Assembly (NCBI GenBank): GCA_004293915.1
Contig: RDZG01000065.1
Location: 1-50,625, forward strand
Length of the DNA stretch: 50,625 nt
From: Bacteroidota bacterium
Lineage (GTDB): Bacteria; Bacteroidota; Bacteroidia; Cytophagales; UBA9547
Direction: 5' to 3'
Within the stretch, counting starts at the first letter, position 1; every line of letters starts with the position of its first letter. The position numbers were made by a program, and so were the translations under genes. Shown here one piece after another: positions 31,162 through 50,625 of the stretch. The notes below the pieces were generated by a model. It worked only from the letters and a program-made list of their open reading frames with translations, was not told the DNA's origin and did not search any database.

Positions 31162-31174
31162 ATTGTTAAGTGAA

Positions 31175-31182
31175 CAAATTTA
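31175..31182 (-). promoter_or_regulatory. -7 box upstream of the transferase gene
   Basis: The minus strand reads TAAATTTG, a TAnnTTTG match only 14 bp before ATG 31161; the transcript leader would be very short. No clear -33 box. Confidence 0.3.
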
Positions 31183-31293
31183 GCTAAAAAACAGTTAAAT
31201 TAATTAAAACTTAAAGAGTATATTTTATTAGTATTTATATTTGTAAATTAAAAAAAGTAAATGCGACTCGTTTAATCATTTATCAAAAAGAAA

Positions 31294-31533
31294 ATGAAAT
31301 TTATAATAATCACACTTTTAGTTATTTTTATTTTTGGGAAAGTATTCAAATATGCGTTCAAATATTGGGTAATGAGTACATTGCAAAAATCTCAAAATCA
31401 AGGTTTTAACTCTCAAAATAACCAACAAACAAAAAAAGAAGGTTCGATTCATATTAATCAAACCGAAAAAAAAGAATCTAATTTAAAAGGCAATAAAGGT
31501 GGAGAATATATTGATTACGAGATTGTTAAATAA
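31294..31533 (+). CDS. DUF4834 small membrane protein
   Basis: This 79-residue protein has one N-terminal helix (MKFIIITLLVIFIFGKVF). A polar Gln/Asn/Lys-rich middle and the ending KEGSIHI...GGEYIDYEIVK match the DUF4834 layout as I remember it. It is anchored in the inner membrane with a short tail. Function is unknown. It converges on purD, with the stop codons only one base apart, and no terminator is visible between them. Confidence 0.75.
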   Translation: MKFIIITLLVIFIFGKVFKYAFKYWVMSTLQKSQNQGFNSQNNQQTKKEGSIHINQTEKKESNLKGNKGGEYIDYEIVK

Positions 31534-31534
31534 T

Positions 31535-32812: not shown

Positions 32813-32820
32813 TTGTAAAA

Positions 32821-33927: not shown

Positions 33928-33930
33928 AAT

Positions 33931-35409: not shown

Positions 35410-35427
35410 CTTTATTAATTTGAGTAC

Positions 35428-35485
35428 GGACAATTTAAGTCCAAAAATATGGAATACATTTTTTAGTTACAACAAATAATGTATT
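35428..35485 (-). promoter_or_regulatory. Promoter and candidate operator of the restriction-modification operon
   Basis: On the minus strand TTG (35472-35470), 20 bp, TATTTTTG (35449-35442) make a plausible promoter. The palindrome GGAC-N7-GTCC (35428-35442) overlaps its start point, and the inverted pair AATACATT/AATGTATT (35453-35460, 35478-35485) brackets the -33 side. This is where a self-repressing XRE domain would bind. Confidence 0.5.
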
Positions 35486-35499
35486 TTATGTATTTAATT

Positions 35500-37341
35500 C
35501 TACCGTTTAGTTTTTATCAACTCACCTTGCATCACAAAACCTGTTTTTTTATCGTTCCAAATCACTAAGTTTTCGACTGAAAAATTGAGTTCTGCGGCTA
35601 GTTCTTCTATGGTAGTGGTTTGTTTTGTTACCCAAATTGTATAATTAGATTTCAAAGAATTAGTATTTTTTTGAACTATAATCTTTTGATCGAACTTCAA
35701 ACCTTCTGCTCCAATCATATTCCATGCTTTTATGCTATCAGCTTTTGTAGCGTAATGCCTGCTTATCGAAAAAAGTGTTTGTTGAGCACCAACCACATGA
35801 TAAACCAAAGCCGAATCTTTTATTATGTCCTTATTAATGAGTTGTTTAACTAACTTGTATTGAACTGGCACTATAACTTCTTTTGGAGCTAAATATAAAT
35901 CGGTTTCTGGTTGCGTTTTTTCGATAATTACAGGTTTTGGTTGTTCTAATATTGGTTTTTGCACCGTTTTTTGAGTATCCGCAACAATGGTTTCTACTTT
36001 AGGTTTTTCAATCGGTTTAGGAATTTCTTTTTTTACAAACTGTATGGGTTCATCGCTTGCTCTTTTTTGTTTTAAATACAAAATCCGACCTTCTATTAAG
36101 GCTTCATTATCTTCTAACCTGTTTTTTTTGATTAATTGTTTGAGTTTTACACCATATTTTTGCGAAATATCCCAAAGACTTTCTCCTAACTTAACTATAT
36201 GTGTTAAAACTATTGCTTTGTTATTTTTTTCTTCTAAATAATAATTTCTACCTGGTTTTACTTCTTCAAAGTTTTGCAAATCATTGAATTTTAAAAACTT
36301 TTTAGGAGAAATGCCTCCCGCAAAAGCCAATTTAGCTGGCGTATCGTTTTCGCGTGCCTGAATTGCCTTCAAATTATTGATAGTAATCAACAAAGGCACA
36401 TCAGAAGTTGTGGTATTATATGATTGTACATTTTGAACCTTATTTTGTTGATTATCAGACGGTTCTACAACTGGCGAAAGTTTATTTTTAGTTAAATTTA
36501 TACCTAAATTAGCTGCAATTTGATTTCTTTCAAGATAAGTAGCTGGTAGCAAAACGGTGTAATCCTTATCATCAGGAACACGTTGATTTGTGAGCCATTT
36601 GTTATATAATTTTAGATTATCTTCATTTATTTTTGTTTCAGATGCTATTTCTGATAATGTTTTACCTTTTGTATTTGTGTTATAAGGCAAAAGCGACAAA
36701 TCGGGATTTTGATTATAACCCACTTTGTCTTCGTAAGCTAATTTATGTGCCAAAAATTTTATGGCATACCAGTGTGTGTTCATATCCAAATTCATTTCTG
36801 AAGCACCTGCATATTCCGAACGCACATATTGTTTTACACCACCCAAGCCTGTATTGTATGCAATTAGTGCGTAAATCCAATTCGAGGTTATTAAATAGTT
36901 TTTTTTAAGATATTTTGCAGCTCCATGCGATGATGCAATAATGTGTTTGCGTTCATCTATATCGCTATTGACCAAAAGACCTACTTCCTGAGCTGTTTCT
37001 TTTTTAAATTGCCAAAAGCCAACTGCATTAGAACTCGAAACTGCATCGGATTGTAACCCACTTTCTTGTATAACCAAATATTTAAAGTCGGTTGGAATGT
37101 TTTCTTCTTCAAATGCTTTATTAATAAATGTTAAATAAGTATCTGTTAATTTTACTTTATTATCATGAAAGTTTTTGTTTTTGAGCAAAGAAGCCACTTG
37201 TTTTTGAATTTCTATACGCAATTCTTGACTCAAATTCAGTTGAATTCCAGCAAAATATATGCTTGAAGGAATTTCTACAGGTTGAGAAAACGCAAAAAAT
37301 GAACCTAAAAACAAAATCACAACATTTAACTTTTTCTTCAC
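35500..37341 (-). CDS. LysM lytic transglycosylase (MltD-like)
   Basis: This 613-residue protein has a GTG start and a signal peptide (ending FFAFSQ). An SLT/goose-lysozyme-like domain (about 75-200) has YLVIQESGLQSDAVSSSNAVGFWQFKKETAQEVGL and 'ALIAYNTGLGGVKQY'; the catalytic Glu is in IQESG. Several LysM-like repeats follow, one clear at 'HIVKLGESLWDISQKYGVKL' and a later one at 'YHVVGAQQTLFSISRHYATK', with a Pro/Lys/Gln-rich linker between. It would cleave peptidoglycan strands in the periplasm, bound through LysM. Two genes upstream is ftsZ; the restriction operon lies downstream. Confidence 0.9.
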   Translation of the reverse strand: MKKKLNVVILFLGSFFAFSQPVEIPSSIYFAGIQLNLSQELRIEIQKQVASLLKNKNFHDNKVKLTDTYLTFINKAFEEENIPTDFKYLVIQESGLQSDAVSSSNAVGFWQFKKETAQEVGLLVNSDIDERKHIIASSHGAAKYLKKNYLITSNWIYALIAYNTGLGGVKQYVRSEYAGASEMNLDMNTHWYAIKFLAHKLAYEDKVGYNQNPDLSLLPYNTNTKGKTLSEIASETKINEDNLKLYNKWLTNQRVPDDKDYTVLLPATYLERNQIAANLGINLTKNKLSPVVEPSDNQQNKVQNVQSYNTTTSDVPLLITINNLKAIQARENDTPAKLAFAGGISPKKFLKFNDLQNFEEVKPGRNYYLEEKNNKAIVLTHIVKLGESLWDISQKYGVKLKQLIKKNRLEDNEALIEGRILYLKQKRASDEPIQFVKKEIPKPIEKPKVETIVADTQKTVQKPILEQPKPVIIEKTQPETDLYLAPKEVIVPVQYKLVKQLINKDIIKDSALVYHVVGAQQTLFSISRHYATKADSIKAWNMIGAEGLKFDQKIIVQKNTNSLKSNYTIWVTKQTTTIEELAAELNFSVENLVIWNDKKTGFVMQGELIKTKR

Positions 37342-37359
37342 ACTATGCTATTTTAAAGA

Positions 37360-37367
37360 CAAAAGTA
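37360..37367 (-). promoter_or_regulatory. -7 box for the transglycosylase gene
   Basis: The minus strand reads TACTTTTG (TAnnTTTG), 18 bp before the GTG start at 37341. No well-spaced TTG. Confidence 0.35.
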
Positions 37368-37438
37368 ATGTATTTTAATTTAATTACTTTTTAACTATTC
37401 TTTAATTTTACTTTAATCAGGCACTTTGATTGATTTTG

Positions 37439-37446
37439 TAAATTTG
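37439..37446 (+). promoter_or_regulatory. -7 box for the candidate small RNA
   Basis: TAAATTTG on the plus strand matches TAnnTTTG. It points away from both neighbouring minus-strand genes and towards three stem-loops. The nearest TTG (37426-37428) is only 10 bp upstream, short of the usual spacing. Confidence 0.35.
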
Positions 37447-37452
37447 TAAAGT

Positions 37453-37599
37453 ATAAAACATTAAAAAAATCAGTTCTAAAGAGTTTAAATTAGAACCGAT
37501 TTAGAAGATAGTTTTGAGGGAGGTACAAACGGAATTAATCCATAATTCTGTTTGGTTTAATTGCAAAATCAACCATATTTTGTATGGTTGATTTTTTTT
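37453..37599 (+). ncRNA. Candidate structured small RNA between ftsZ and the transglycosylase gene
   Basis: On the plus strand, opposite to both flanking genes, a -7-like box (37439) is followed by three ordered hairpins. These are GTTCTAA/TTAGAAC (37473-37496), a 12-bp stem CAAACGGAATTA/TAATTCTGTTTG (37526-37554, one G-U pair, loop ATCCA), and a 13-bp stem (37565-37595) ending in T8. That last hairpin is a strong plus-strand terminator but a weak minus-strand one, and no plus-strand protein frame needs it. The transcript would be about 145 nt. The start is inferred, and I do not recognise a known RNA family. It could instead be a bidirectional terminator of ftsZ plus unrelated palindromes. 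Confidence 0.45.
37565..37599 (+). terminator. Strong hairpin terminator beside ftsZ
   Basis: AAAATCAACCATA (37565-37577) pairs perfectly with TATGGTTGATTTT (37583-37595), loop TTTTG, and the T-run extends to 37599 on the plus strand. On the minus strand, after ftsZ, only four T follow. Confidence 0.8.
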
Positions 37600-39052
37600 A
37601 ATCTACATTATCGTGCAAAAACTTATTATTTCCTAGCACATCGCCATCTTCGTTTAGGCTAAATTTAGAAACAACTCTTTCAGACGAATGAGGAGGTTCG
37701 TAAAGATTTTTTTGTGTGCGTAAGTAAGCTGGCTCATTAAACATTTTTCTGAGTTCTTCTTGGTCGATAGAAGATACAACTGTGCGTTCAGAAATTTTTG
37801 TAATTCTTGCTCTTCCTGTTTCCTCTTGTTTTTTGCGTTTATCTTCGTCAAGTTCTTGATAATCAGAAACTATTGCTTTTTCGTGTTCTGGACTAAACAA
37901 TGTTGGTTGTATAACATTGGGTTTGTTATCGTTTGGAATAACCACACGAGCAGCATCCACATTTTTGAAAATACCATCGTTTGAATCAACAATAACTTGT
38001 TCTTCGGCTCTTGAAGGATATTTTGCTGAAACCGTTTTTTGTGATTCTAAATCAGTAACTTTAGTTGAAACAGTTTCTTTTTCAAATTTAGAAGCTTCAA
38101 AACCAGTTGCAATAACAGTAACTCTTATTTTATCTTCGAGCGAAGCATCAATACTTACGCCACATTTGAGCAAAGCATCCATTCCAGCAGTTTCTTGAAA
38201 ATAATCATTAATTTCTGCGTACTCATCCATTGTAAGACTTTCGGCAGTTGATGTAATTGAAACCAGTATCTTTTTAGCCCCCGAAATATCTGTATTATTC
38301 AAAAGTGGAGAATGTAAAGCTGCTTCAGCCGCTTTTATTGCCCTATCTTTTCCGCCTTGAACAGAAGAACCCATTACGGCAGCACCAGCCGATTTCATTA
38401 CCATATTGACATCTTGAAAATCAATATTTATAAATCCTGGATTTGTAATTATTTCAGCAATCGATTTTGAAGCAGTTGTTAAAATATCATCTGCTTTTGA
38501 GAAAGCATCTCTAAAGTTTAGGTTGCCATGTATTTCTCTGATTTTATCATTTAAAATAATGATTACCGTGTCGCAATGTTGTTTGAGTTCTTTTACACCT
38601 TCTTCGGCTAACATTACTTTTTTGCGACCTTCAAAATTAAATGGCATGGTTACAATTCCAACCGTTAGCACATCCATTTCTTTTGCAATTTTTGCTATTA
38701 CAGGAGCAGCTCCTGTGCCAGTTCCGCCACCCATACCAGCTGTAATAAACACCATTTTGGTATCTAAAAGCACTTCACGGATGCGTTCTTTGTCTTCTAG
38801 CGCAGATTGTTTGCCCATATCAGGATTTGTACCTGCTCCCAAACCTTCGGTAAGGAGCGAACCAATCTGAATTTTATTTTCAATTGGACTTGTTTTTAAT
38901 GCTTGTGCATCCGTATTACAAACCCAAAATTCAACATCTTGAATGCCTTGCTGAAACATATAATTCACAGCATTGCTACCGCCTCCACCTACTCCAATAA
39001 CTTTAATAATAGGTTTTCTAGATCCGTTAGGTAATTCGAACTTATAGTTCAT
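37598..39052 (-). CDS. ftsZ: Cell division protein FtsZ
   Basis: This 484-residue tubulin-like GTPase has the G-box GMGGGTGTGAAPVIAKIA (the tubulin signature) and an N-terminal KVIGVGGGGSNAVNYMF. The T7 loop region is DAFSKADDILTTASKSIAEI. The long polar linker (about 330-460) and C-terminal NEDGDVLGNNKFLHDNVD are as in other Bacteroidota FtsZ. It polymerises at midcell with GTP and scaffolds the divisome. ftsA and other mur/fts genes are not adjacent, so here ftsZ stands outside a dcw cluster. Confidence 0.98.
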   Translation of the reverse strand: MNYKFELPNGSRKPIIKVIGVGGGGSNAVNYMFQQGIQDVEFWVCNTDAQALKTSPIENKIQIGSLLTEGLGAGTNPDMGKQSALEDKERIREVLLDTKMVFITAGMGGGTGTGAAPVIAKIAKEMDVLTVGIVTMPFNFEGRKKVMLAEEGVKELKQHCDTVIIILNDKIREIHGNLNFRDAFSKADDILTTASKSIAEIITNPGFINIDFQDVNMVMKSAGAAVMGSSVQGGKDRAIKAAEAALHSPLLNNTDISGAKKILVSITSTAESLTMDEYAEINDYFQETAGMDALLKCGVSIDASLEDKIRVTVIATGFEASKFEKETVSTKVTDLESQKTVSAKYPSRAEEQVIVDSNDGIFKNVDAARVVIPNDNKPNVIQPTLFSPEHEKAIVSDYQELDEDKRKKQEETGRARITKISERTVVSSIDQEELRKMFNEPAYLRTQKNLYEPPHSSERVVSKFSLNEDGDVLGNNKFLHDNVD

Positions 39053-39100
39053 AGCATTAAAATTATGTGTATAAAATATTATATATCAGTTAGTTAACTC

Positions 39101-39108
39101 CAAAAATA
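39101..39108 (-). promoter_or_regulatory. -7 box for ftsZ
   Basis: The minus strand reads TATTTTTG, a TAnnTTTG match 48 bp before the ftsZ ATG. No clear -33 TTG. Confidence 0.35.
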
Positions 39109-39294
39109 GAGTAACATTTTTTAAATACGAATTGACTTAAAATTAGTATTCCTTGCGAATATATACACATTTATCAACAAGTTATTAACATAAAGCATGG
39201 AGTTTTGGGTAAAAAAATAAAATTATTTTAATCTACAAAAAATAGTACCGAAAACTATTTATAATAAAAATACAACCATAACTAAAAATAATTA

Positions 39295-39302
39295 TAGTTT
39301 TG
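39295..39302 (+). promoter_or_regulatory. -7 box for the 39326 gene
   Basis: TAGTTTTG matches TAnnTTTG, 23 bp before ATG 39326. No clear -33 TTG is visible. Confidence 0.4.
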
Positions 39303-39325
39303 TTAAAAGAAAAATACTATACTTT

Positions 39326-41321
39326 ATGAAAAGAAAAGAATTTATTGGAAATTTAACTGCACTTGGCATTGGTTCGCTTTTAATTGAAAATCAAGATGCT
39401 AATGCAAGTTCAAATGCAGATTTTAAATTATCAAATGAATATTTTTCAGCTGAATCTATCATAATTCCTAGCATTTTAGATAAAATCGAAAACGAATACA
39501 TTTCGTTTTCATGGATGAATGATGCCTCTGCTGAAATTATTGATAAAAAAAATCAATCAACTTGGCGAATGGGTTCAGTTGCTATACAAGAACAAGATGA
39601 GATTGAAAACAATCATGTTTGGGTGCGGCAAGACCGCTCAATTTGTGAGCAATATCCAGCTCGATTTAGAGGTGTGATGAACAATGGAGTAGCCAGTTTT
39701 ACCATGTTAAACACCGAACTTCAAGCTGTTGGAACTTTCAAATGTAAAGTTACATTGGAAAAAGAATTTCTTAATTTTATAATTTCTGATATTGATGAAA
39801 ATATTCCAAATTTGTCGTTTCCACCTCCAATAGAAAACGATTTTTTGGTTTTGCCACAAGGTGTGGGAAAATTAATAAAAGAATCAAACGACAGGAAATT
39901 TTTAACTTGGGTTGCTCATTTGAATATGCGATTTGTTGGCGGATTGAACAAAAACAATTCTGGATATTGCCTTATTTGATGATAATTTTGAAGATTCTGG
40001 AATTTTGCAATTGGGTCTGAACGTGATGCCTGTTTGGCAAAAATCTTTGGGAAAATATACTCCGAACAGAACTTTAAAATATGCTTTTACATCAGGTGGA
40101 TATGTTGGAATAGCAAAAAAATTTAGAGAATGGGCAAAGTCTAAAGGATTATTAAAATCGTTGGACGAAAAACTTAAACAAACGCCACAATTAAAATCTA
40201 TGATTGGTGGCAGACAAGTAACTTTTTATCAATGTATTCCAAAAACAAAATACTCGACTCAAGAAAACCAATTACAAAGTAGCGAAAGATTAGCAAAAGC
40301 AAAACTTGAAGGAGAAAATCCTCCTCCAAATGTGTTATTTACATATAAAGATGTGAAAGAAATAGTAACCGAATTAAAAACAAATTGGGGATTTAAAAAA
40401 GGAATGATAAATTTAAGAGGCTGGATAAAAGGTGGTTATGATTATTCTCATCCAGACATTTGGCCTCCAGAACCGCTTTTGGGTTCAATTGAAGAATTGA
40501 AAAACTTATCTAAAACTGAACCAAATTACTTTACATTATTGCATGATAATTACCAAGATATTTATGCACAAAATCCGAGTTTTCCTAAAGGAATAAATCA
40601 AGATAAAAAAGGAAGATTTATGAAAGGTGGCATGTGGGCAGGCGGACAAGCTTATATTTTAAACTCACGTGATAGTATAAAATACGCCAAACGAAACTGG
40701 GAACAAATAAAACAATTGAACACAGGCGGAATGTTTATTGATACCACTTCGGCTGTGCAACTTTACGAATCGTTTGAAAAAGGAAATACATCAACAAAAG
40801 CTGAAGATTTAAAATATAAAATGGAATTAATTACATTTTATAAAAACCAAAACCAAGTTTTTGGAAGCGAAGAGGTAGCTGATTTTGCTATAAAAGATGT
40901 TGATTTTTTTGAAAACAGACATGCCAGAAAAGCAGGAGAATCTATTCCGCTTTGGTCCTTAGTTTTTCATGATTGTGCTATGATGAGCAGATATGTGGAC
41001 AAATCGAACATGAAACTAACCGCAAAACCTTGGCTAGAGGATATGCTTTGGGGATATTTTGTGCTTTTCAGAATGGGAACCTGGGGCAAAACAGAATGGA
41101 AACACCAAAAAGAAGAGTTTATGGCTTCGTTACCAGCTGACGAATGGTTTGGCAAAATTGCAACCGCAGAAATGACAAACCATGAGTTTTTGACAACTGA
41201 TTTTGAAGTCGAAAAAACTACATTTTCAAACGGGAAAAGTATTATTGTCAATTTTGGAGAAGATTCCAAAACTGTTCAAAACCTAACTATTGAAGGGCTA
41301 TCATATAAAATTTTAGAATAA
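39326..41321 (+). pseudogene. Secreted protein, possible glycosidase-like, frameshifted in the middle
   Basis: Two frames form one protein of about 664 residues. The first (39326-39979) has a signal-like start MKRKEFIGNLTALGIGSLLI and a beta-rich domain ending SGYCLI-stop at TGA 39977. The next frame continues directly with FDDNFEDSGILQLGLNVMPVW and runs to 41321. Total 1996 = 3x665+1, so one net extra base near 39970 breaks it. The second part has motifs reminiscent of (beta/alpha)8 glycoside hydrolases of the GH101/DUF5696 sort, e.g. GMINLRGWIKGGYDYSHPD, TGGMFIDTTSA and VFGSEEVADFAI, where Asp and Glu lie at barrel-strand-like ends. I cannot name the family with confidence. It is a single-gene unit with its own -7 box and terminator. 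Confidence 0.55.
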
Positions 41322-41349
41322 AAAAACCGCAAGTTTTTTGCGGTTTTTT
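41321..41349. terminator. Bidirectional intrinsic terminator
   Basis: AAAAAACCGCAA (41321-41332) pairs perfectly with TTGCGGTTTTTT (41338-41349). It sits between the convergent 39326 gene and the DUF6175 gene and has T-runs on both strands. Confidence 0.9.
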
Positions 41350-41368
41350 AAAAGAAATATTATGTTTT

Positions 41369-42310
41369 TTATTTTTCTCCTAATATCAACGTTGCCTGAC
41401 CTAAGCCTTTCATAGTGAGCTTACTAGAAACTTTATATGGTTCGGCAGCAAGATATTTTTGCAATTTACGAACAAAAGCACGTGTATCAGATGCATTGCC
41501 TTTATCATCATAAATTGGAATACGAACTTGCTCAAAAAACATCATATTTTCAGTTGCTTCTGTAGTTGAAAAACGACCTTTAACTGCTTGTTTTTTTACC
41601 CACTCTTCAATCAGTTCAGAAATTGTTACACCATCTTTAACTTCTTCGTCCAAATCTTTATCCCACGAATCAAACTTGCGAATACGAATTGTAACCTCTC
41701 TGCCATTTGCAAACATATCGTCAAAATACTTTTGTAATTGAACATTAAAACGGTCAATTTGTGAAATCACAGCCTCTTCTAACAACACAGGAACCTCAGC
41801 AGAAAACGATGGTTTGCCTGTGCCTTGAGCACCAACAATTTGTTTGTCGGTGTAAGCATCTAACCCTTGCAAATTAAAAACTACAGTTTTTTTAGGACCA
41901 GTTGTAGCAATCGAATACGTGATTTGGACAATAATATCAGCTTTTGCCACACGTTTTAATTTATCAAAAGGGCTTTCAGTAATACTTGCAGCCGTTTTTG
42001 ATTGTTTCACGCTTGTTTCGGCATTGTCTTGGTCTATATTTTTAATGGCGGATTGTAGGTCTTTCATAGGAAAACCCCTATCAGTCATCAATGTATTGAT
42101 TTTAGAAATCACCATTTGCAATTCATCACTCAAAAGTGCTTTACGGTAATCAACGACTTTTATTTTCTGACCTTGATTATCAATTTCTGTCATATATCCA
42201 TTTTTATTGCACCAAGCATCACTCGGTACAACCATCAAAGTAGGTTTTTTGGCTTGCGAAAAAGCAAAAATCGAACCTAATAAACATACTAAAACACCAA
42301 CTTTTTTCAT
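41369..42310 (-). CDS. DUF6175-family secreted protein
   Basis: This 313-residue protein has a signal peptide (MKKVGVLVCLLGSIFAFSQ) then PTLMVVPSDAWCNKNGYMTE. It continues with ISKINTLMTDRGFPMKDL, KRVAKADIIVQITYSI, VVFNLQGLDAYTDKQIVGAQGTG and EVTIRIRKFDSW. I recall the same order in DUF6175 proteins of Bacteroides. The middle resembles the ancient envelope-assembly lipoprotein fold (CsgG/FlgO/LpoB-like: 'AD.iv.l.y...G....v...lDaytgk.v...tG'). It is the last gene of a three-gene run after two paralogous lipoproteins. A periplasmic or outer-membrane complex is a reasonable guess; no function is known to me. Confidence 0.8.
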   Translation of the reverse strand: MKKVGVLVCLLGSIFAFSQAKKPTLMVVPSDAWCNKNGYMTEIDNQGQKIKVVDYRKALLSDELQMVISKINTLMTDRGFPMKDLQSAIKNIDQDNAETSVKQSKTAASITESPFDKLKRVAKADIIVQITYSIATTGPKKTVVFNLQGLDAYTDKQIVGAQGTGKPSFSAEVPVLLEEAVISQIDRFNVQLQKYFDDMFANGREVTIRIRKFDSWDKDLDEEVKDGVTISELIEEWVKKQAVKGRFSTTEATENMMFFEQVRIPIYDDKGNASDTRAFVRKLQKYLAAEPYKVSSKLTMKGLGQATLILGEK

Positions 42311-42364
42311 TTTATTATATTGATTTATTTTTATTTAACTTAAAAAACAATTAACAATTAACAA

Positions 42365-42865
42365 TTATTCTATAATACCTTTAGATTTTAGTTCTTTTCT
42401 GAGTTCTGACACCAAAACTGTTAATCTCAAACTAAAAACTTTTTCTCTGCCTTCGGCTCTCAATCGGACTTTGGTTTGACGTGGCGTGTCTTCTTTTGTA
42501 ACAAATGCTTTGTACGGACCATTATCTTTGAAAAACTCGTTGAAAAACTCACGTTTTTCGTCATACGTGTTTTGATTAAAAACAATTGGACGCGTATCGC
42601 AACCCGTTCTGCCCAAGCGTGTGCCTTTGAAAAGTACATTAAAAACAGCATTTTTTTTTGCTTGTTCACGAGCATCTTCACGGTTTGCACCTGCTCCAAA
42701 CGAGCGAACTTGCTGACTTCCATCGAGTTCTGTTCCCAAACATTCGATTTCGTATTCGTAAAAACCAGCTGTAGTATTTCTTGCAGCATTAGAAAACGAA
42801 CGATTATTACACGAACTACTAATTAATAAAATAGCTAATCCGAAACCTAAAATATGTTTATACAT
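42365..42865 (-). CDS. Lipoprotein of the DUF6175 cluster (paralogue 1)
   Basis: This 166-residue lipoprotein has signal and lipobox 'LLISSSC' (Cys19). The mature part has GFYEYEIECLGTELDG, then EDAREQAKKNAVFNVLFKG, a second Cys (GCDTRP) and a C-terminal helix LTVLVSELRKELKSKGIIE. It is clearly a paralogue of the protein encoded 13 bp upstream: the same 'YEhEC', AK-NAV-F-G helix, matched Cys spacing (46 versus 45 residues) and 'LR-EL...GII/VI' end. The two Cys may form a disulfide. It faces the periplasm or surface. I know no function; the helix motif recalls LPP20/FlgT-type envelope proteins. Confidence 0.78.
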   Translation of the reverse strand: MYKHILGFGLAILLISSSCNNRSFSNAARNTTAGFYEYEIECLGTELDGSQQVRSFGAGANREDAREQAKKNAVFNVLFKGTRLGRTGCDTRPIVFNQNTYDEKREFFNEFFKDNGPYKAFVTKEDTPRQTKVRLRAEGREKVFSLRLTVLVSELRKELKSKGIIE

Positions 42866-42878
42866 TTTGAATTATAAA

Positions 42879-43388
42879 TTAAAAACCTGAATCTAAACGT
42901 CTGATAACTCCTGCTTGTTCTAATTCTTGACGAAGCAAATCTTTTTGAACCGAAATGGTTACTCCCAATTTGTACTGGTTTCCAACTTTTACACGGTCTT
43001 CAGGAGCAATGGAGCCATCGTTGCTGTTTGTGGCATATTTCAAATATTTTCCACCATCAGCAAAAAAAGCTTTAAAATAATCTTTGTATTGTTCTTCAAC
43101 ACCAGCACTAGTTGCTAATGCCGATTGTTGATAGCAGTTTGCATTTGAAGCAAATCCCCTAAAAATTACTGCATGAACTGCATTTCGTTTGGCTTCGTTC
43201 AATGCCTTTGTTTGGCTTTTGGAATAACTCCATACTTTTAATAAATAAGTACCTTCAACCCCTGTGTTCACACATTCGACTTCATAAGTCCAAGTATTGA
43301 GGTTTGTAGCCACAGTAGGCGTTTTTTTACAAGAAACGGTGGCAAACATTCCGAATGCCAAAGCAAAATTTACGAGTGTCTTTTTCAT
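42879..43388 (-). CDS. Lipoprotein of the DUF6175 cluster (paralogue 2)
   Basis: This 169-residue lipoprotein has lipobox 'FATVSC' (Cys20). It shares with its neighbour the pattern WTYEVECVNTGVEG, ALNEAKRNAVHAVIFRGF, a second Cys (NANCYQQ), YFKAFFADGGKYLKY and the end LLRQELEQAGVIRR. It is first in the minus-strand run of lipoprotein, lipoprotein, DUF6175 with gaps of 13 and 54 bp, so the three are probably one transcript and one complex. No known domain is recognised beyond the shared core. Confidence 0.78.
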   Translation of the reverse strand: MKKTLVNFALAFGMFATVSCKKTPTVATNLNTWTYEVECVNTGVEGTYLLKVWSYSKSQTKALNEAKRNAVHAVIFRGFASNANCYQQSALATSAGVEEQYKDYFKAFFADGGKYLKYATNSNDGSIAPEDRVKVGNQYKLGVTISVQKDLLRQELEQAGVIRRLDSGF

Positions 43389-43553
43389 TTAATTTTAAAA
43401 CTAATACGGTATTACGGATATATCAAATAAACGTTGGGTTTTCTGAAAATATTTTAATTGAGGTTTGATTTTTTATCATAAATACATTTCGTAAAAATGA
43501 TTCATAAAATCACATTCTCCAAAACCATTCTTTTAATAATCCTCTTTTAATCT

Positions 43554-43584: not shown

Positions 43585-46500
43585 ATGGAAATACAATTAC
43601 AAATTGCCATTGAGCAATTAAAGCAAGGTTTTAAAGGAGATATTTATACAGATGAAGTGCAACGCACTTTATATAGTACGGATGCTTCGGTCTATAAACA
43701 AAAACCACTTTTTGTAACACGTCCAAAAACTATTGCTGATATCAAGAAAATCATAATGTTTGCTACAGAACATAAAACTTCTGTCGTTCCACGTACTGCC
43801 GGGACTTCTTTGGCAGGGCAAGTGGTTGGCGAAGGAATTATTGTGGACGTATCCAAATACTGGAATCAAATTCTCGAAGTCAATAAAGAAGAAAAATGGG
43901 TTAGAGTACAACCTGGAGTTGTTCTTGATGAATTAAATAAACACTTGGAGCAATACGGCTTGTTTTTTGGACCAGAAACTAGTACTTCAAATCGTTGCAT
44001 GATGGGTGGCATGGTTGGAAACAACTCTTGTGGCTCTCATTCAGTGATTTATGGCACTACTAGAGACCACGTTTTAGAACTAAAAACAATTTTGGCTGAT
44101 GGCTCTGAAACTGTTTTTAAAGCATTGAGTCAAAGTGAGTTTATGGATAAATGCTTAGGTAGAACTTCCGCTTCTGATTTAGAAACGAATATTTACCAAC
44201 ATATTAAAGAAAATTTATCTTCAGAAATTGTTAAAAATGAGATTATAAAAGAATTTCCAAAACCAACCATCAAAAGAAGAAATACGGGCTATGCCACTGA
44301 TGAATTGTTGGATACAGAATTGTTTAGCCCTGAAAACATAAGCCCCCAAACCCCCGAAGGGGGCTTTGCTTCCTCAAAATATAATCCATATCTTACTTAT
44401 AAAAATAATTATTCTTGGAATAAAATTGGACAACTCCCCCTTCGGGGGCTGGGGGGCTTCAATTTCTGCAAACTTTTGGCAGGAAGCGAAGGTACTTTGG
44501 CATTTACAACCGAAATAAAATTGAATTTGGTTGATATTCCACCACGAATAAAAGGTGCAGTTGCGATTCATTTAAACTCCATCGATGACGCCTGCAAAGC
44601 CACTATTATCGCACTAAAATATAAACCTGGGGCAGTAGAATTATTGGATGATATCGTTTTAGAAGCATCCGCTCAAAATATTGAACAGAAAAAAAATATG
44701 TTCTTTATCAAAGATTTACCTAAAGCGGTAATCATTGTTGAGTGGGCTCGAGAAACCAAAGAAGAGATAGAAAAACTTGCTCAAGAACTTGAAAACGAAT
44801 TAAATACGCTCAATTTCGGCTATCATTTTCCACGATTGTGGGGAGCCGAAATCAGTGCTGCATGGAGTTTACGCAAAGCAGGTTTAGGACTTTTGGCTAA
44901 TGTACCTGGAGATCCAAAAGCCGTTGCCTGTATTGAAGATACAGCGGTAGCCGTAGAAGATCAGCCCGCTTTTGCGGCAGAATTTGCCCAAATCATGGCA
45001 AAATATGGTAAGACAAGTGTTTATTATGCCCATATAGGCGATGGAGAGTTGCATTTACGTCCAATTTTAGATTTGAAAAAAGCCGAAGACCGAGAACTGT
45101 TTTTCAAAATTACAGACGATGTTGCCACTTTAGTAAAAAAATATGGCGGCTCGATGAGTGGCGAACATGGCGATGGTCGTGTGCGTGGCGAATTTGTTCG
45201 TAAAATGGTGGGAGAAAAGAACTACCAACTTTTTTTAGATATAAAAAAAACGTGGGATCCAAATAATATTTTTAACCCAGGAAAGATTGTGAATTCTCCA
45301 AAAATGAATGAACAATTGCGTTATGAATCAGGACAAGAAACGCGTCAGTTTAAAACCGTTTTCAATTTTGATGAAACAGGTGGAATTTTAAGATTAGCCG
45401 AAAAATGCAATGGTTCTGGAGATTGTCGCAAAAGCAGTGTGATTGGCGGAACCATGTGTCCAAGCTATATGGCTACCAAAAGCGAGAAAGAAACTACACG
45501 AGCCAGAGCCAATATTTTACGTGAATTTTTGACCAATTCACCAAAAGAAAATGCCTTCGACCATAAAGAAATAAAAGAGGTTTATGACCTATGTTTGAGC
45601 TGTAAAGGTTGCAAAAGCGAATGCCCAAGCAATGTGGATGTGGCAACCATGAAAGCAGAATTTCTGCAACATTATTACGATGCAAACGGTGTTCCGTTTA
45701 GAACTCGAATGATAGGAAATTTTGTTAAAAGCATGGAATTGGCTTCAAAGATTCCTGCTATTTACAACTTCCTAATGTCGAATAAAATCACAGGTTCAAT
45801 TGCCAATAAAGTTATGGGCATTCATCCAAAAAGAAGCTTTCCTTTGTTGGCAAAGAAAACTCTCTACAAAACCCTTTGCAGCCCCCTAACCCCCGAGGGG
45901 GGAACTCCCATCGCTCACCCTATTCTTAAAGATTCATATGTAACTTTAACAAAATTAGGATTAAGAATTTCTCCTGTAAATTTAAATATCAGTAAAAATA
46001 GAGACTCAAAAGCCCCCTTCGGGGGTTTGGTGGCTTTTCTTTTTGCAGATGAGTTTACTAATTTTAATGATGTAGAAATAGGAATCACTACCGTAAAATT
46101 GCTCAATAAATTAGGCTATGAAGTTATTATACCTACACATGTGGAAAGTGGACGCACTTTTTTAAGCAAAGGATTGGTGCGAGATGCCCAAAAACTAGCC
46201 ATCGAAAATGTGAAATTATTGAAAGACATCATCACTTCAGAAACGCCATTGATAGGCATAGAACCTAGTTGTATATTGAGTTTTAGAGATGAATATCCAA
46301 AATTAGTACCAAAAGAATTAATTTCTGATGCTCAAAATTTGGCAAAAAATTGTCTTTTGGTAGATGAATTCTTGGCAAAAGAATTAGACAAAGGCAATAT
46401 TAAAAAAGAACAATTTACTCAAGCAGAGAAAAAAATAAAACTGCATGGACATTGCCACCAAAAAGCACTCGCTAGTGTTACTCCTACAAAAAAACTACTG

Positions 46501-46752
46501 GAATTTCCAACCAATTACAAGGTAGAAATGATTCCATCGGGCTGCTGTGGCATGGCTGGTAGTTTCGGATATGAAAAAGAGCATTTTGAAGTAAGCATGC
46601 AAGTGGGAGAATTGGTACTTTTTCCAGCTGTTCGCAAAGCAACTGATTATGAAATAGCTGCGCCTGGAACAAGTTGTAGACATCAAATACACGATGGAAC
46701 GGGCAGAAAAGCAAAGCATCCTGTGGAGATTTTGTGGGAAGCGTTGGTGTAA
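43585..46752 (+). CDS. FAD-binding and Fe-S-binding oxidoreductase (D-2-hydroxyacid dehydrogenase type) with two in-frame insertions
   Basis: This 1055-residue fused enzyme has an FAD_binding_4 domain (about 35-200; PRTAGTSLAGQVVGEGIIVDV, GGMVGNNSCGSHSV). An FAD-oxidase C-terminal domain follows (about 285-575; YYAHIGDGELHLRP, GGSMSGEHGDGRVRGEF). Two Fe-S motif regions are CNGSGDCRKS...GTMCPSY and LCLSCKGCKSECPSNVDVA. A CCG domain pair (about 890-1050) has GIEPSCILSF, LHGHCHQKAL and IPSGCCGMAGSFGYE. Relatives oxidise D-lactate or similar 2-hydroxyacids and pass electrons to quinone at the inner membrane. Codons 253-292 and 766-818 are extra segments bounded by REP-like palindromes; without them the length is 962, close to the family's usual size. 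The frame stays open, so the protein may still be made. Confidence 0.9.
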   Translation: MEIQLQIAIEQLKQGFKGDIYTDEVQRTLYSTDASVYKQKPLFVTRPKTIADIKKIIMFATEHKTSVVPRTAGTSLAGQVVGEGIIVDVSKYWNQILEVNKEEKWVRVQPGVVLDELNKHLEQYGLFFGPETSTSNRCMMGGMVGNNSCGSHSVIYGTTRDHVLELKTILADGSETVFKALSQSEFMDKCLGRTSASDLETNIYQHIKENLSSEIVKNEIIKEFPKPTIKRRNTGYATDELLDTELFSPENISPQTPEGGFASSKYNPYLTYKNNYSWNKIGQLPLRGLGGFNFCKLLAGSEGTLAFTTEIKLNLVDIPPRIKGAVAIHLNSIDDACKATIIALKYKPGAVELLDDIVLEASAQNIEQKKNMFFIKDLPKAVIIVEWARETKEEIEKLAQELENELNTLNFGYHFPRLWGAEISAAWSLRKAGLGLLANVPGDPKAVACIEDTAVAVEDQPAFAAEFAQIMAKYGKTSVYYAHIGDGELHLRPILDLKKAEDRELFFKITDDVATLVKKYGGSMSGEHGDGRVRGEFVRKMVGEKNYQLFLDIKKTWDPNNIFNPGKIVNSPKMNEQLRYESGQETRQFKTVFNFDETGGILRLAEKCNGSGDCRKSSVIGGTMCPSYMATKSEKETTRARANILREFLTNSPKENAFDHKEIKEVYDLCLSCKGCKSECPSNVDVATMKAEFLQHYYDANGVPFRTRMIGNFVKSMELASKIPAIYNFLMSNKITGSIANKVMGIHPKRSFPLLAKKTLYKTLCSPLTPEGGTPIAHPILKDSYVTLTKLGLRISPVNLNISKNRDSKAPFGGLVAFLFADEFTNFNDVEIGITTVKLLNKLGYEVIIPTHVESGRTFLSKGLVRDAQKLAIENVKLLKDIITSETPLIGIEPSCILSFRDEYPKLVPKELISDAQNLAKNCLLVDEFLAKELDKGNIKKEQFTQAEKKIKLHGHCHQKALASVTPTKKLLEFPTNYKVEMIPSGCCGMAGSFGYEKEHFEVSMQVGELVLFPAVRKATDYEIAAPGTSCRHQIHDGTGRKAKHPVEILWEALV
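44341..44460 (+). mobile_element. REP-flanked miniature element inserted in frame (120 bp)
   Basis: The left end, AGCCCCCAAACCCCCGAAGG and then GGGCT, is matched in inverted orientation by the right end CTCCCCCTTCGGGGGCTGGG and then GGGCTTC. Between them are about 68 bp of AT-rich sequence. The segment is exactly 40 codons in phase 0, giving SPQTPEGGF at its start and LPLRGLGGF at its end. It falls between FSPEN and FNFCKLLAGSEG, where relatives are contiguous. The ends look like those of the second element at 45880. Confidence 0.75.
45880..46038 (+). mobile_element. Second REP-flanked miniature element in the same gene (159 bp)
   Basis: The left end AGCCCCCTAACCCCCGAGGG (then GGGAACT) and the right end AAGCCCCCTTCGGGGGTTTG (then GTGGCTT) are related inverted repeats, sharing their core with the 44341 element. 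The interior is unrelated AT-rich DNA. It is 53 codons, phase 0, and its left end is read in the same frame as in the first element (SPLTPEGG versus SPQTPEGG). It lies just before FLFADEFTNFNDVEIG, where relatives have no such segment. Confidence 0.72.
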
Positions 46753-46774
46753 AGCGTAAGATAAACAGAAAATA

Positions 46775-47974
46775 ATGAATACTACAACTCACAAGTTTTC
46801 GTATCATCTAATATTAAAAATACTCTTCCCGATTTTAATTTTAGGATTGGGAGGTATTTTTTTGTATGTTATTTTTACTGATGTTTTGAGTAATTTTAGA
46901 GAATATTCAATACTTCAATTAGTTGTTCTTTTATCACAATACATCTTATTGATTTTCTATGGCATAGACTATATTTTTACTGAAATAGAAATTGATGATA
47001 ATGGAGTTTCTAAAAAAGAACTTTTTAGAAATACATATTTATCCTATAATGAAATAAAGCATTTTGAAAAAAGAAAAAATGGAATATTTATATTTTCTAA
47101 AAATGAAAATGATAAAGCGATTTTTATAGCAAAGCAACTTTATAAATTCAAAGGAATAGGACAACTTTTGTCTTTGAAGATAATAGAAGCTCCAGAAATT
47201 GAAAGTGCAAAAAAAGATAAACAATATTTAATAGATGCAGCAATAAATAATCATCATTTTGGAGATACCGTTAAAACGAGATTATTTGTAATGAATTTGT
47301 TTAAATATGGAAATTATATCTTATGGGGTGCTTCAATTATGCTATTGATTTGGTTGGCATTTTCTACAGTAGAAACAGAATTAACTTTTAGTATCTTAAT
47401 TTCATTACCAATATTTTCATACATATTATTAAAATTTTTCAACAATTACTTTGACTTTATGAATATTAATGGTGCTGAAAAACTAGATGTTTCTAGTATG
47501 ATTCTAGTGCCTTCATTTGGGTTATTTATATGTTCATTTTCTTCGTTTAGATTGTTTGAGAGCAATTTAGTTTTAACCATTTCTATTCTTTTGAGCCTAG
47601 CTGTAGTTTTAAGCCTATTTGATATTTTTATAAAACTTAAAAAAGTATCTTATTTTGTACTAATAATGACCTTAACTATTCCATTAGCAAGTTTTAGCAT
47701 TTACTTTTATAAAACTATTAAAATAGTAAATATATATTTTGATAATTCAACTGCTAAATCCTTTAAGGTTAAAATATTAGATAAATATATTCAAAAAGGT
47801 AAATCAAAAACCCATTGCATAGTAATAGAAAAATGGTACAAAAGATCATCAGAAGAAAGTGAAGATGTGAGTGATGAGTATTACGATAAAGTAAAAGTTG
47901 GCGATTCTATTACAATTGAGCTTTATAATGGAAGCTTAAATACAGCGTATTATGTTTTGAAAAATGAAAATTAA
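46775..47974 (+). CDS. Unknown multi-pass membrane protein, 399 aa
   Basis: I do not recognise this family. The N-terminus has two membrane helices (about 12-35, ILKILFPILILGLGGIFLYV; 45-65). A soluble PH-like stretch follows (about 68-135; IEIDDNGVSKKELFRN, YNEIKHFEKRKNGIFIFSK), as in membrane proteins with 'IxxxxI' bacterial PH folds. Four to five further helices occupy about 175-320. The end is a small beta-rich C-terminal domain (about 325-399; YDKVKVGDSITIELYNGSL). It is very Phe/Ile/Lys rich and appears more AT-rich than its neighbours. It starts 22 bp after the oxidoreductase stop and is followed by a second copy of that gene's 3' end, so it looks like an inserted gene. Confidence 0.7.
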   Translation: MNTTTHKFSYHLILKILFPILILGLGGIFLYVIFTDVLSNFREYSILQLVVLLSQYILLIFYGIDYIFTEIEIDDNGVSKKELFRNTYLSYNEIKHFEKRKNGIFIFSKNENDKAIFIAKQLYKFKGIGQLLSLKIIEAPEIESAKKDKQYLIDAAINNHHFGDTVKTRLFVMNLFKYGNYILWGASIMLLIWLAFSTVETELTFSILISLPIFSYILLKFFNNYFDFMNINGAEKLDVSSMILVPSFGLFICSFSSFRLFESNLVLTISILLSLAVVLSLFDIFIKLKKVSYFVLIMTLTIPLASFSIYFYKTIKIVNIYFDNSTAKSFKVKILDKYIQKGKSKTHCIVIEKWYKRSSEESEDVSDEYYDKVKVGDSITIELYNGSLNTAYYVLKNEN

Positions 47975-47987
47975 TTATAAAAACAAC

Positions 47988-48071
47988 ACAAGCAGTAGGC
48001 ATCAAATCCACGATGGTACGGGCAGAAAAGCTAAGCATCCAGTGGAGATATTGTGGGAGGCGTTGGTGTAG
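47988..48071 (+). pseudogene. Ghost 3' end of the oxidoreductase gene
   Basis: These 84 bp match the last 84 bp of the oxidoreductase (46669-46752) at 74 of 84 positions. They would encode the same end, TSSRHQIHDGTGRK...ILWEALV-stop. Eight of the ten differences fall at third codon positions or within the stop codon without changing the product, and one further difference is synonymous; only one residue differs (Cys to Ser). There is no start codon or upstream part. It therefore derives from a homologous gene that evolved under selection, not from a fresh duplication. Confidence 0.85.
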
Positions 48072-48124
48072 TGATAAATGTTAATTCAAAATTAATTTAT
48101 GATTTAGATTTTCATATTTTTTCT

Positions 48125-48132
48125 TAATTTTG
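48125..48132 (+). promoter_or_regulatory. -7 box for the OmpA-family gene
   Basis: TAATTTTG matches TAnnTTTG, 23 bp before ATG 48156. No clear -33 box. Confidence 0.4.
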
Positions 48133-48155
48133 ATAAAGATTAAAATAATATCATT

Positions 48156-49685
48156 ATGAAACTTTCACATCTATATTTTACTTTTTGTGTATTTTGTGTA
48201 AACCTATTATTCGCACAAAAGGAAGCAAATAATTGGTATTTTGGAAGAAACTGTGGAGTTACATTTTCGTCAGGAAAACCAACGGCTATTACAGATGGTC
48301 TTTTATCAACCGAAGAAGGATGTGTAACAATTAGTGATAATCAAGGCAAAATACTATTTTATACAGATGGTGTAACTGTTTGGGACAAAAATCATCAAGT
48401 GATGAAAGGTGGGACTAAACTTTTTGGCAGTTCTTCTGCAACACAATCTGGTGTAGTCATTCGTAAACCAAATTCAAATAATGAATTTTATTTGTTTACA
48501 GTAGATGAAACCGCAAAGGCAAATGGACTTTGTTATACGCTGATTGACTTAGACAAAAATAATGGATTAGGAGAAATTGATACTACAAAAAAGAATATTC
48601 AGCTCAAAACACCTGTTACAGAAAAACTAACGGCAGTTTTGCACAGAAACAATAGAGATATGTGGGTAATTGCTCATGAATGGAAATCCAGAAAATTCAT
48701 TGCTTATTTGGTAAAACCTGATGGAATTAACCCTATTCCAGTAGTCAGCGAAACGGGATATTTGCACGATGGGAATGGAACTAATACACAAGGGTATATG
48801 AAAGCGAATCCTGATGGAACTAATTTGGCAGTTGCTATCGAAGATTCGTGTAAATTAGAAATATTGGATTTTGATAATGCTACGGGCAAAATAAGTAATC
48901 CTGTATTATTAAGTTTTCCTTTAAAATTATATCTCTATGGTGTTGAGTTTTCGCCTGACGGTTCAGTATTATATTGTTCGGCAGCAGGAACTGGGGAAAT
49001 ATATCAGATTAATCTTCAGGCAGGTTCTGAAGCTGCCATCAAAAAGTCAATAACAATGATAGGAAAATCTGAAAATAAAGAATGGATTGGTGCATTGCAG
49101 ATTGCTATTGATGGAAAAATTTATTTTCCAGTTTATGGTAAAAGTTTTTTAGGAGCAATCAACAATCCAAATGAGCTGGGTTCAAATTGTGATTTCAAAC
49201 TTAATGTAGTGGATTTAGCAGGAAAAATTACTTCATTAGGACTTCCTACTTTTGCTCAAAATTTTTTTAAACAAGATCAAACTGTTAAAAATTTAAAATA
49301 TTTCGATGAAAAATCAGTGTCTATCAAAGATAAAATTATTCTAAAAAACATACGATTTGATTTTGGTAAATTTGTCATTAAACCTATTTCATTTCCTGAG
49401 TTAGATTTGGTTGTAAAAATTCTTAAACAAAAACCAACTTATTTTATCGACTTAAATGGGCATACAGATAATATTGGAAATAAATCAGATAATATCATTT
49501 TGTCGTTCAATAGAGCAAAAGCCATTAAAGATTATCTGATAAAGAAAGGAATTGCTGAAAAAAGAATTAGCTATTTTGGTTATGGAAGCAGTAAACCAGT
49601 AGCAAACAACGATAGCGAAGAAGGAAAAGCAAAAAACAGAAGAGTTGATTTTTCACTTTCTCTCGAACCTGTGATTAGAAATTAG
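48156..49685 (+). CDS. OmpA-family protein with N-terminal propeller-like domain
   Basis: This 509-residue protein has a signal peptide ending LLFAQ. An N-terminal beta-propeller-like domain (about 25-370) starts NNWYFGRNCGVTFSSGKPTA, with 'ILFYTDGVTVWDKNHQVM' and 'GVEFSPDGSVLYCSAAGTG'. A C-terminal OmpA domain (about 395-505) has LKNIRFDFGKFVIKPISFPE, DLNGHTDNIGNKSDN, LSFNRAKAIKDYL and 'RISYFGYGSSKPVANNDSEE'; the peptidoglycan-binding D and R are in NGHTDN and AKNRRVDF. This domain pair is frequent in Bacteroidota, some near type IX genes. It would tether a propeller to the cell wall in the periplasm or under the outer membrane. Single gene. Confidence 0.9.
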   Translation: MKLSHLYFTFCVFCVNLLFAQKEANNWYFGRNCGVTFSSGKPTAITDGLLSTEEGCVTISDNQGKILFYTDGVTVWDKNHQVMKGGTKLFGSSSATQSGVVIRKPNSNNEFYLFTVDETAKANGLCYTLIDLDKNNGLGEIDTTKKNIQLKTPVTEKLTAVLHRNNRDMWVIAHEWKSRKFIAYLVKPDGINPIPVVSETGYLHDGNGTNTQGYMKANPDGTNLAVAIEDSCKLEILDFDNATGKISNPVLLSFPLKLYLYGVEFSPDGSVLYCSAAGTGEIYQINLQAGSEAAIKKSITMIGKSENKEWIGALQIAIDGKIYFPVYGKSFLGAINNPNELGSNCDFKLNVVDLAGKITSLGLPTFAQNFFKQDQTVKNLKYFDEKSVSIKDKIILKNIRFDFGKFVIKPISFPELDLVVKILKQKPTYFIDLNGHTDNIGNKSDNIILSFNRAKAIKDYLIKKGIAEKRISYFGYGSSKPVANNDSEEGKAKNRRVDFSLSLEPVIRN

Positions 49686-50009
49686 AGCATTTTATTCGTA
49701 AGAAATTGTCATTGAGTTTTATGAAGTTATAGGTATTGTTAATTTGAAATAGATATTCGTTACACCTAACCTAATTGAATAAAAAGCTTAATGGGTGAAT
49801 TTTAGAATACTATCCTACTTTACTCAGTTGACGAATTTAATATTATTACAGAAAAAGAGAAATATAATTTTCCAACAATAAATAAAAACTACTGTCATCC
49901 GACAAAATTTTAAGAATAGATAAATTATCTTAAAAAAGTACAATAGCGAAATTTTGCAATTCCGCTATTTTTTATGATTTTGTGAGTTCTCAAGCTAAAT
50001 AAAATCACG
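49686..50009. other. Intergenic stretch before a transposase remnant
   Basis: This 324-bp AT-rich region has no coding frame I can support. It contains a small inverted repeat (TTTTAAGA 49908-49915 with TCTTAAAA 49928-49935) and a terminator hairpin at 49942. The left end of the insertion sequence probably lies within about 49890-49945, but I cannot place it without the right end. Confidence 0.5.
49942..49973 (+). terminator. Terminator-like hairpin upstream of the transposase remnant
   Basis: AATAGCGAAATT (49942-49953) pairs with AATTCCGCTATT (49958-49969) with one mismatch, followed by a T-run. It may protect the insertion sequence from read-through or end the OmpA-family transcript. Confidence 0.6.
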
Positions 50010-50549
50010 ATGCAAAATAGTAAATTATCTGGACAACCCATTATTTGTCAATTACTTTCTTTAATTCCCAAAGAATTAGTAGCTAAATACGAATCTGATA
50101 AATATTACAAAACACTAAAAACATACAAACAATTTGTTTTTATGCTTTTTGGAGTCATTAGTAAATCCAACTCGTTAACTACACTTTGTAAGTGTACGAT
50201 ATTTTTAGAAAATAAGCTCAGCTATGTTGGCATCAATGAATTGCCTGCAAAAAGTACCCTTTCCAATGCCAATATCAATAGAAAGAGTGATGTGTTTGAG
50301 AAATTATACTACGCTTTGATAGCAACCTATCAGTCAGAATTGACTTCTATTTTGATGCATGAAGACATCAATGGCGAAGCTCCTTGTGCAAAATTAAAGC
50401 GATTTGATAGTACCACTATTACTTTATTCAGCGACATTTTCAAATGAGCAGGTCGTTTGCCCTTACCCGAAAATGGCAGTAAAGTTGGGGGCATAAAAGC
50501 CCAAACTTTATTGGCATTTAATAACCTGTCGGTGCCTGAAATACGTTGA
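50010..50549 (+). pseudogene. IS4-family transposase, interrupted and truncated
   Basis: The frame starts MQNSKLSGQPIICQLLSLIP and has the N-terminal DUF4372-like part of IS4 transposases (YKTLKTYKQFVFMLFGVISK, KSTLSNANINRKSDVFEKLYY). It then has the first catalytic region KRFDSTTITLFSDIFK. A TGA (50445-50447) follows where relatives have Gly. The same frame then continues AGRLPLPENGSKVGGIKAQT up to a second stop at 50547, after which no transposase sequence is visible. About 180 codons of the usual 380-400 remain. The element is dead as written. Confidence 0.8.
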
Positions 50550-50589
50550 CCGTTTTGAAGAGTAAAAACGGATTAAACTATTTATAAAA

Positions 50590-50625
50590 ATGGCAACATT
50601 AGAGACTTACAAATTGACCGAATCA
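50590..50625 (+). CDS. Possible start of a gene, cut by the window edge
   Basis: ATG at 50590 opens a frame MATLETYKLTES to the end of the window, 18 bp after a CCGTTTT/AAAACGG hairpin (50550-50571). Only 12 codons can be seen, so it is not identifiable and may be chance. Confidence 0.2.
   Translation, partial: MATLETYKLTES

Follow-up and report, generated by a model that had tools for sequence, protein, structure and literature searches.

Displaced gene ends behind an oxidoreductase gene and housekeeping genes of a Cytophagales genus: probable traces of imported gene ends and their neighbors

Introduction

C-terminal displacement at rhs loci leaves an intact gene followed by truncated 3' parts, each with its downstream gene (Jackson et al. 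2009, PMC2935791). Rhs displacement resembles what we describe here probably in its homologous recombination in a shared part, and certainly in its stacked arrays, which we met at polA in two genomes (G001 and G002) and at an oxidoreductase gene in one (G002). In rhs, however, displacement alters the protein, because its tips consist of non-homologous toxin domains; our anchors, in contrast, are housekeeping genes with homologous ends that specify almost the same amino acids, and the change is confined to the neighbor. Displacement of T6SS effector-immunity genes works by homology-facilitated illegitimate recombination (PMC5361080). It has in common with our loci an old downstream gene that is kept and sequential stacking, and our loci would probably share its upstream homology anchor and its non-homologous far joint. 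There, the anchor is an effector gene and the cargo an immunity gene (PMC5361080), whereas here the anchors encode DNA polymerase I, Mfd, AspS, MiaA, and the oxidoreductase, and the cargo is toxin-antitoxin-like or unknown. Because the displaced ends are homologous alleles and not toxin tips, our loci are not members of the rhs or T6SS displacement systems.

Insertion with long target duplication was reportedly described by Nobusato et al. in 2000. In Helicobacter, it concerns restriction-modification genes in the portions of two reports available to us (PMC1643837, PMC3154945). The likeness is that a small gene unit lies between long direct target repeats and that a relative carries the empty allele; in our material, a relative has a single copy at a batA-like gene (an empty site in G001) and at the oxidoreductase (also in G001), and there is no exact empty site for the window. 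The differences are that we found no restriction-modification cargo among the ORFs tested and that here the repeats mostly end at stop codons, diverge silently, and are stacked. Finally, the PabI locus of H. pylori ELS37 is duplicated around an integrated ICE, with one junction interpreted as homologous, the other as non-homologous, and a truncated duplicate gene (PMC4615327). That locus differs in being, within the part of the report consulted, a single case, with a 1,577-bp duplication around an insert of ~50 kb. By analogy, gene-end displacement may work like the rhs, T6SS, and long-target-duplication systems but act on housekeeping genes. A literature search, which most subscription journals lay outside, did not turn up any description of such arrays behind housekeeping genes.

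Results

The window, by which we mean the whole stretch of 50,625 nucleotides analyzed, is contig C56 of G000, a 3.85-Mb genome from a group of uncultured aquatic bacteria. Its congeners G001 and G002 are both Cytophagales metagenome assemblies, and the analysis was carried out on assembled sequence. The genes, gene ends, and inserted segment of the window described below lie on the forward strand. The anchor gene, detected as an ORF and by profile search (43585 to 46752), encodes a 1,055-amino-acid (aa) oxidoreductase with an FAD-linked oxidase and a 4Fe-4S domain; the nearest NCBIfam model is YdiJ-like, with a score under that model's cut-off. The end of this intact gene (copy 1, 46669 to 46752, stop codon TAA) is followed by an inserted segment (46753 to 47986) with a 399-aa ORF (46775 to 47974), which begins 22 bp past the oxidoreductase stop codon and finishes 13 bp ahead of a displaced oxidoreductase end (copy 2, 47987 to 48071), recognized by repeat comparison, with the stop codon TAG and a change of Cys to Ser. 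Beyond it lie a block with an OmpA-family gene (48111 to 49741) and, at the contig end, a transposase fragment (DUF4372, 50010 to 50625), the last ~100 bp of which are found again on other contigs. When the composition of the inserted segment was set against its flank, a comparison already envisaged in the original prediction, its GC content was 24%; the anchor gene has 38% and the whole window 33%. The oxidoreductase gene itself contains GC-rich inverted repeats (44340 to 44460 and 45880 to 46035) coding for 'S-P-x-TPEGG' stretches, with matches of 28 to 35 bp at several dozen sites across G000, G001, and G002.

The best direct repeat between 44500 and 50625 pairs 46669 to 46751 with 47988 to 48070 (83 nt, 89% identity, spacing 1,319). 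Adding the last base of the stop codon gives a repeat of 84 nt (46669 to 46752 and 47988 to 48071) with 10 differences, nine of which are synonymous, TAA/TAG counted; the one nonsynonymous difference is the Cys-to-Ser change. This confirms that the oxidoreductase end recurs behind an unrelated gene with mostly silent differences, as originally noticed. In the comparison of the window with G002, the start of copy 2 moves one base 5' (C47987). The other direct-repeat families of the window (at least 40 nt, at most 12 kb apart) are internal repeats at 11.9 to 14.6 kb. When 10 random substitutions were placed on the intact end, at least nine were synonymous in 0 of 4,000 simulations (mean, 1.67), a test that leans towards selection because changes on the side of the intact gene are tolerated only if silent. 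Copies 1 and 2 diverge by 11.9%, and the mean for the window versus G002 over 28-codon stretches of the oxidoreductase is 10.9%.

The oxidoreductase protein of the window is 87% identical to that of G001 and 95% identical to that of G002. In G001, a DUF6932 gene and an HTH gene lie within 70 bp 3' of the intact oxidoreductase (L047:5045-5964). In G002, the contig with the oxidoreductase (C203) ends, and another contig (C46) starts with the same exact 93 bp. The order on C46 is an ORF and a dCTP deaminase-like gene, a first oxidoreductase remnant (r1, 52 bp), a SocA/Panacea-like gene and a 160-aa ORF, a second remnant (r2, 84 bp, L311:2655-2739), and a DUF6932 gene and an HTH gene. L047:4909-5892 of G001 aligns to L311:2672-3668 of G002 with 69% identity, from inside the gene end through the DUF6932 and HTH genes. 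Therefore, this pair stands behind the intact gene in G001, which is the unstacked site, and behind a displaced end in G002, where two further cassettes are stacked between the intact oxidoreductase and the DUF6932-HTH cassette. These two arrangements, together with those at the other genes described below, support the proposal that homology-driven entry of a segment next to the 3' end displaced a diverged allele of this gene end, now seen as copy 2.

Remnant r2 and copy 2 of the window share their left junction (CACAAGC) as well as the Ser codon and differ at 4 of 84 sites; the cargo to their left is unlike, as is the DNA to their right beyond 8 bp. The last 51 nt of r2 show two differences from the intact end of the window and seven from G002's own end. 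Because of this pattern of similarity, oxidoreductase-end alleles appear to circulate between species. A mirror arrangement is present at the 5' side in G001, where 102 bp of a diverged oxidoreductase start lie 841 bp upstream of the intact gene; the encoded protein start (MEIQLQIA-EQLKQ) resembles the starts in the window and G002 more closely than that of the intact G001 gene. Separately, a phage-integrase-family gene (XerD-like by eye) lies 5' of the G002 oxidoreductase, outside the cassettes (L046:2053-2976).

We then asked how common such remnants are at oxidoreductase loci. The ORF was found in 84 of 86 sequences, with at least 1.5 kb of sequence downstream in 79 and upstream in 78. No remnant lay within the available flank at 79 other oxidoreductase loci with the ORF; the positives were the window and G001 only (G001 having been entered twice), and the remnants of G002 lie beyond its contig end. 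A search of the congeners for the empty site originally expected, in which the oxidoreductase is followed directly by the OmpA-family gene, gave a negative result, and we found neither a donor of the window insertion nor a strain lacking only that insertion.

The identification of the 399-aa gene as cargo is supported by the comparison with G001 and G002, from which relatives of it are absent, and by the same architecture elsewhere. Remote relatives (19 to 31% identity) occur in 25 of 290 other genomes of the same order searched. The protein had no Pfam or NCBIfam match, and PADLOC gave nothing usable. Helices are predicted in its membrane-like stretches, with a mean pLDDT of only 43 for the predicted structure.

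The OmpA-family gene adjoins rimP-nusA-infB in G002 (C287; L158:6674-8311), where it is 94% identical to the window copy. The OmpA block next to copy 2 looks, by this comparison, like a separately relocated gene that arrived on its own. The last 35 bp of the OmpA gene with 207 bp downstream (window region 48111 to 49889) are also present at G002:C67 (L312:5864-6105), beside a small gene pair; this piece is possibly a displaced OmpA end. A ~120-bp repeat on the same stretch (L312:5719-5849) occurs some 40 times in G002, and its copies in G001 are more diverged.

Displaced 3' ends of polA are present three times in G001 and twice in G002, with small cassettes between them, several of which are toxin-antitoxin-like. 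The order in G002 is polA, HicA/HicB, a polA end, a DUF4160 gene with a 149-aa ORF and a small gene pair on the opposite strand, a polA end, and tgt. The order in G001 is polA, a DUF6934 gene, a polA end (248 bp), a 283-aa ORF, a polA end (79 bp), a DUF6934 gene, a polA end (~120 bp), a weak BrnT match, and a kdsC-like gene. Stacking is thus seen at two anchors, polA and the oxidoreductase. Two intact and five displaced polA ends make seven in all, and the DNA behind each is different, starting within a few bases of the stop codon. Silent changes account for 12 of 14 differences in r1 and 3 of 10 in r2 of G001, and for 10 of 14 in r1 and 10 of 12 in r2 of G002; r3 of G001 was left out of this test for an indel. 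Over 78 nt, r1 and r2 of G002 each differ from the polA end of G000 at 7 positions, versus 10 and 9 positions from the polA end of G002 itself.

We scanned for displaced ends at other genes, taking direct repeats of at least 45 bp, 250 to 8,000 bp apart, with one copy on an ORF end and the other outside ORFs. The scanned stretches came from contigs met in other searches, a choice blind to the feature and not random. There were hits at 6 of 411 ORFs in G000, 9 of 386 in G001, and 1 of 138 in G002; the control genomes G006 (0 of 141), G004 (0 of 52), G018 (0 of 80), G037 (0 of 71), and G053 (0 of 64) had none, and 78 oxidoreductase loci gave 2 of 545. The congeners thus had 16 hits on 935 ORFs versus 2 on 953 in the controls (Fisher p = 0.0006), a count that takes in all hits, unclean ones included, that has 78 loci all centered on the oxidoreductase among its controls, and that leaves out the stretch L312, which was chosen because of a match. 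An inverted-repeat control gave 0 in all groups run. Several hits (L171, L270, L278, and L280) are tandem paralogues or repeats and not clean cases.

Five clean 3' cases share the repeat architecture of the window: miaA (89 bp, 99% identity), mfd (84 bp, 98%), aspS (46 bp, 89%), a batA-like gene (50 bp, 100%), and a 4,708-aa ORF (173 bp, 95%). In these five and the window, homology stops within 5 bp of the stop codon, and in the window insertion the shared homology terminates at the stop codon itself; mnmE is the exception, with homology running 210 bp beyond the stop codon. The genes mfd, aspS, miaA, and the batA-like gene each have a single displaced end. Silent changes number 3 of 3 at mfd, 3 of 9 at L180, and 0 of 1 at miaA; across all loci, most diverged copies differ silently. 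Scores for miaA, mfd, aspS, mnmE, purC, tgt, and nusA reached the NCBIfam cut-offs, and those for the batA-like and kdsC-like genes were below; rimP, infB, two cargo genes at aspS, a DinD-like ORF, and a PIN-like ORF at L184 were named by eye.

Gene order differs widely among the congeners, and therefore an unstacked comparison could be made only at the batA-like gene and the oxidoreductase; synteny at miaA, mnmE, and mfd is uninformative because the congener flanks sit on different contigs. In G001, the next shared gene block begins 160 bp past the batA-like stop codon, which is an empty site. In G000, a Schlafen AlbA_2 gene, the 50-bp remnant, and a further ORF fill this position. The cargo ORFs tested matched HicA/HicB, DUF4160, DUF6934, SocA-like, GT87, Schlafen AlbA_2, or dCTP deaminase-like families, or nothing.

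Four further observations concern repeated gene ends. The purC 5' end (254 bp, with 104 bp upstream) is duplicated 273 bp upstream at 97% identity (L177:98-1085). The mnmE end and the next gene are duplicated in G001 (L201:8265-12732), with a DinD-like ORF (by eye) inside one copy. In G001, L188:3730-13084 contains a 5' remnant of a gene end among repeated paralogues and looks by eye like a polymorphic-toxin or immunity region. On the 3' side of the aspS remnant of G001 (L274:9400-16069) are PIN-like, cytosine methyltransferase-like, and other defense-like ORFs (by eye).

Identity between G000 and G002 is 89% at the oxidoreductase, 94% at OmpA, and 92% over a stretch of polA; five other gene-sized blocks of the window (30626 to 43500) are 71 to 79% identical. 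The higher identity of the anchors fits inter-species recombination at these genes, and stronger constraint on polA could contribute. No identity excess was seen for miaA, mnmE, the batA-like gene, or mfd in the pairs compared (68 to 79%).

Discussion

The probable explanation for these loci is gene-end displacement, in which the gene end of an incoming relative, together with its neighbor, pushes the resident's old end downstream. We favor import of a gene end with its neighbor because the protein is unchanged and because the gene is followed first by a new cassette and then by the old end with the old cassette. A related strain would supply DNA with the 3' part of the anchor gene plus whatever gene sits behind it. 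On the homologous side, this DNA would recombine within the coding sequence of the resident gene; on the non-homologous side, its far end would be joined to the resident gene at a point between a few dozen and some 250 bp short of the stop codon. The anchor would thereby be whole, with the donor's end, the cargo would be its new neighbor, and the old end and the old neighbor would be shifted downstream. Repeated rounds would stack cassettes, with the newest adjoining the gene, and a mirror version would act at 5' ends. In this scheme we infer the direction of transfer, the donor, RecA-type recombination, and the nature and chemistry of the second joint. Two observations count against it: simple independent displacements do not predict the junction and Ser codon common to copy 2 and r2, and some pairs have no silent excess (r2 of polA in G001, L180, and miaA).

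An alternative that we consider unlikely is a circular intermediate, as proposed for rhs, in which cargo and one gene end are excised via the gene-end repeats and reintegrate by a single crossover in the gene end. Such a circle would give the same final structure, account for stacking, and let cassettes leave and return. Remnant r2 of G002, with its left part like copy 2 and its last 51 nt like the intact end of the window, has the pattern of a crossover in the repeat. Long identical runs at miaA (52 nt), mfd (38 nt), and r1 of polA in G001 (68 nt) also suit it, and for such pairs the circle is better placed. However, the longest runs are short in the window (14 nt), in r2 of polA in G002 (17 nt) and G001 (18 nt), and in r1 of the G002 oxidoreductase (12 nt), which is little for a crossover restricted to the repeat if divergence came first. 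The gene bodies of the window and G002, in contrast, share 16 runs of at least 30 nt. Therefore, a crossover in the gene body with a non-homologous joint is our first choice and a circle with one crossover in the repeat our second.

Local tandem duplication of the gene, or of its end and neighbor, followed by deletion or decay, could explain the G001 mnmE locus, where a duplicated segment later received an insert, and short arrays of paralogues are present at L271, L275, and L278. It is very improbable as a general account, since differences are mostly silent in the window, in three of the four polA remnants tested, and at mfd, and none of the three congeners has a full second oxidoreductase at the remnant's place; these results favor the original view that copy 2 is not a local duplication. 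In addition, the cassettes between repeats are mostly unrelated to one another, the two DUF6934 genes of G001 being the exception.

Phage 21 and e14 integrate at the 3' end of icd and bring a replacement gene end. Site-specific integration of this kind would likewise leave a restored gene end with cargo behind it and the old end displaced, and the left junction common to copy 2 and r2 would fit it. However, there was no integrase among the cargo ORFs tested, so the integrase-like site use first suggested for the window found no support. Junction position and sequence vary between genes and within polA, no common motif was seen by eye across the junctions examined, and 5' ends are used too. We therefore regard this explanation as highly improbable. 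An assembly artefact, in which mixed strains carry different neighbors behind the same gene, draws on G001 and G002 being metagenome assemblies and on the absence of hits in three single-contig control genomes, but we give it scarcely any weight, since the joint between cargo and remnant offers an assembler no shared sequence, the pattern is found in three separate assemblies, and the fragmented assemblies G004 and G006 also gave no hits (on 52 and 141 ORFs).

A broader reading is tentative, and we hold it to be somewhat short of an even chance: housekeeping genes in this genus may serve as docking anchors for cassettes that need no recombinase, with the gene end as the transfer signal, spread between species by ordinary recombination in the gene, and arrays in chronological order. 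The anchors would be polA, mfd, aspS, miaA, and the oxidoreductase, and the cargo small toxin-antitoxin and unknown cassettes. Such arrays could be compared to integrons, with the gene end replacing attC.

Gene gain without an integrase, transposase, or phage is common and leaves few traces. On the proposed explanation, the scars described here would record the order of arrival and reveal that each cassette brought its anchor's allele along. As a record of arrival, they make it testable which genes become hotspots and why. They link recombination in essential genes with how small toxin-antitoxin-like genes spread, and they would caution that phylogenies inferred from polA and similar genes include imported ends.
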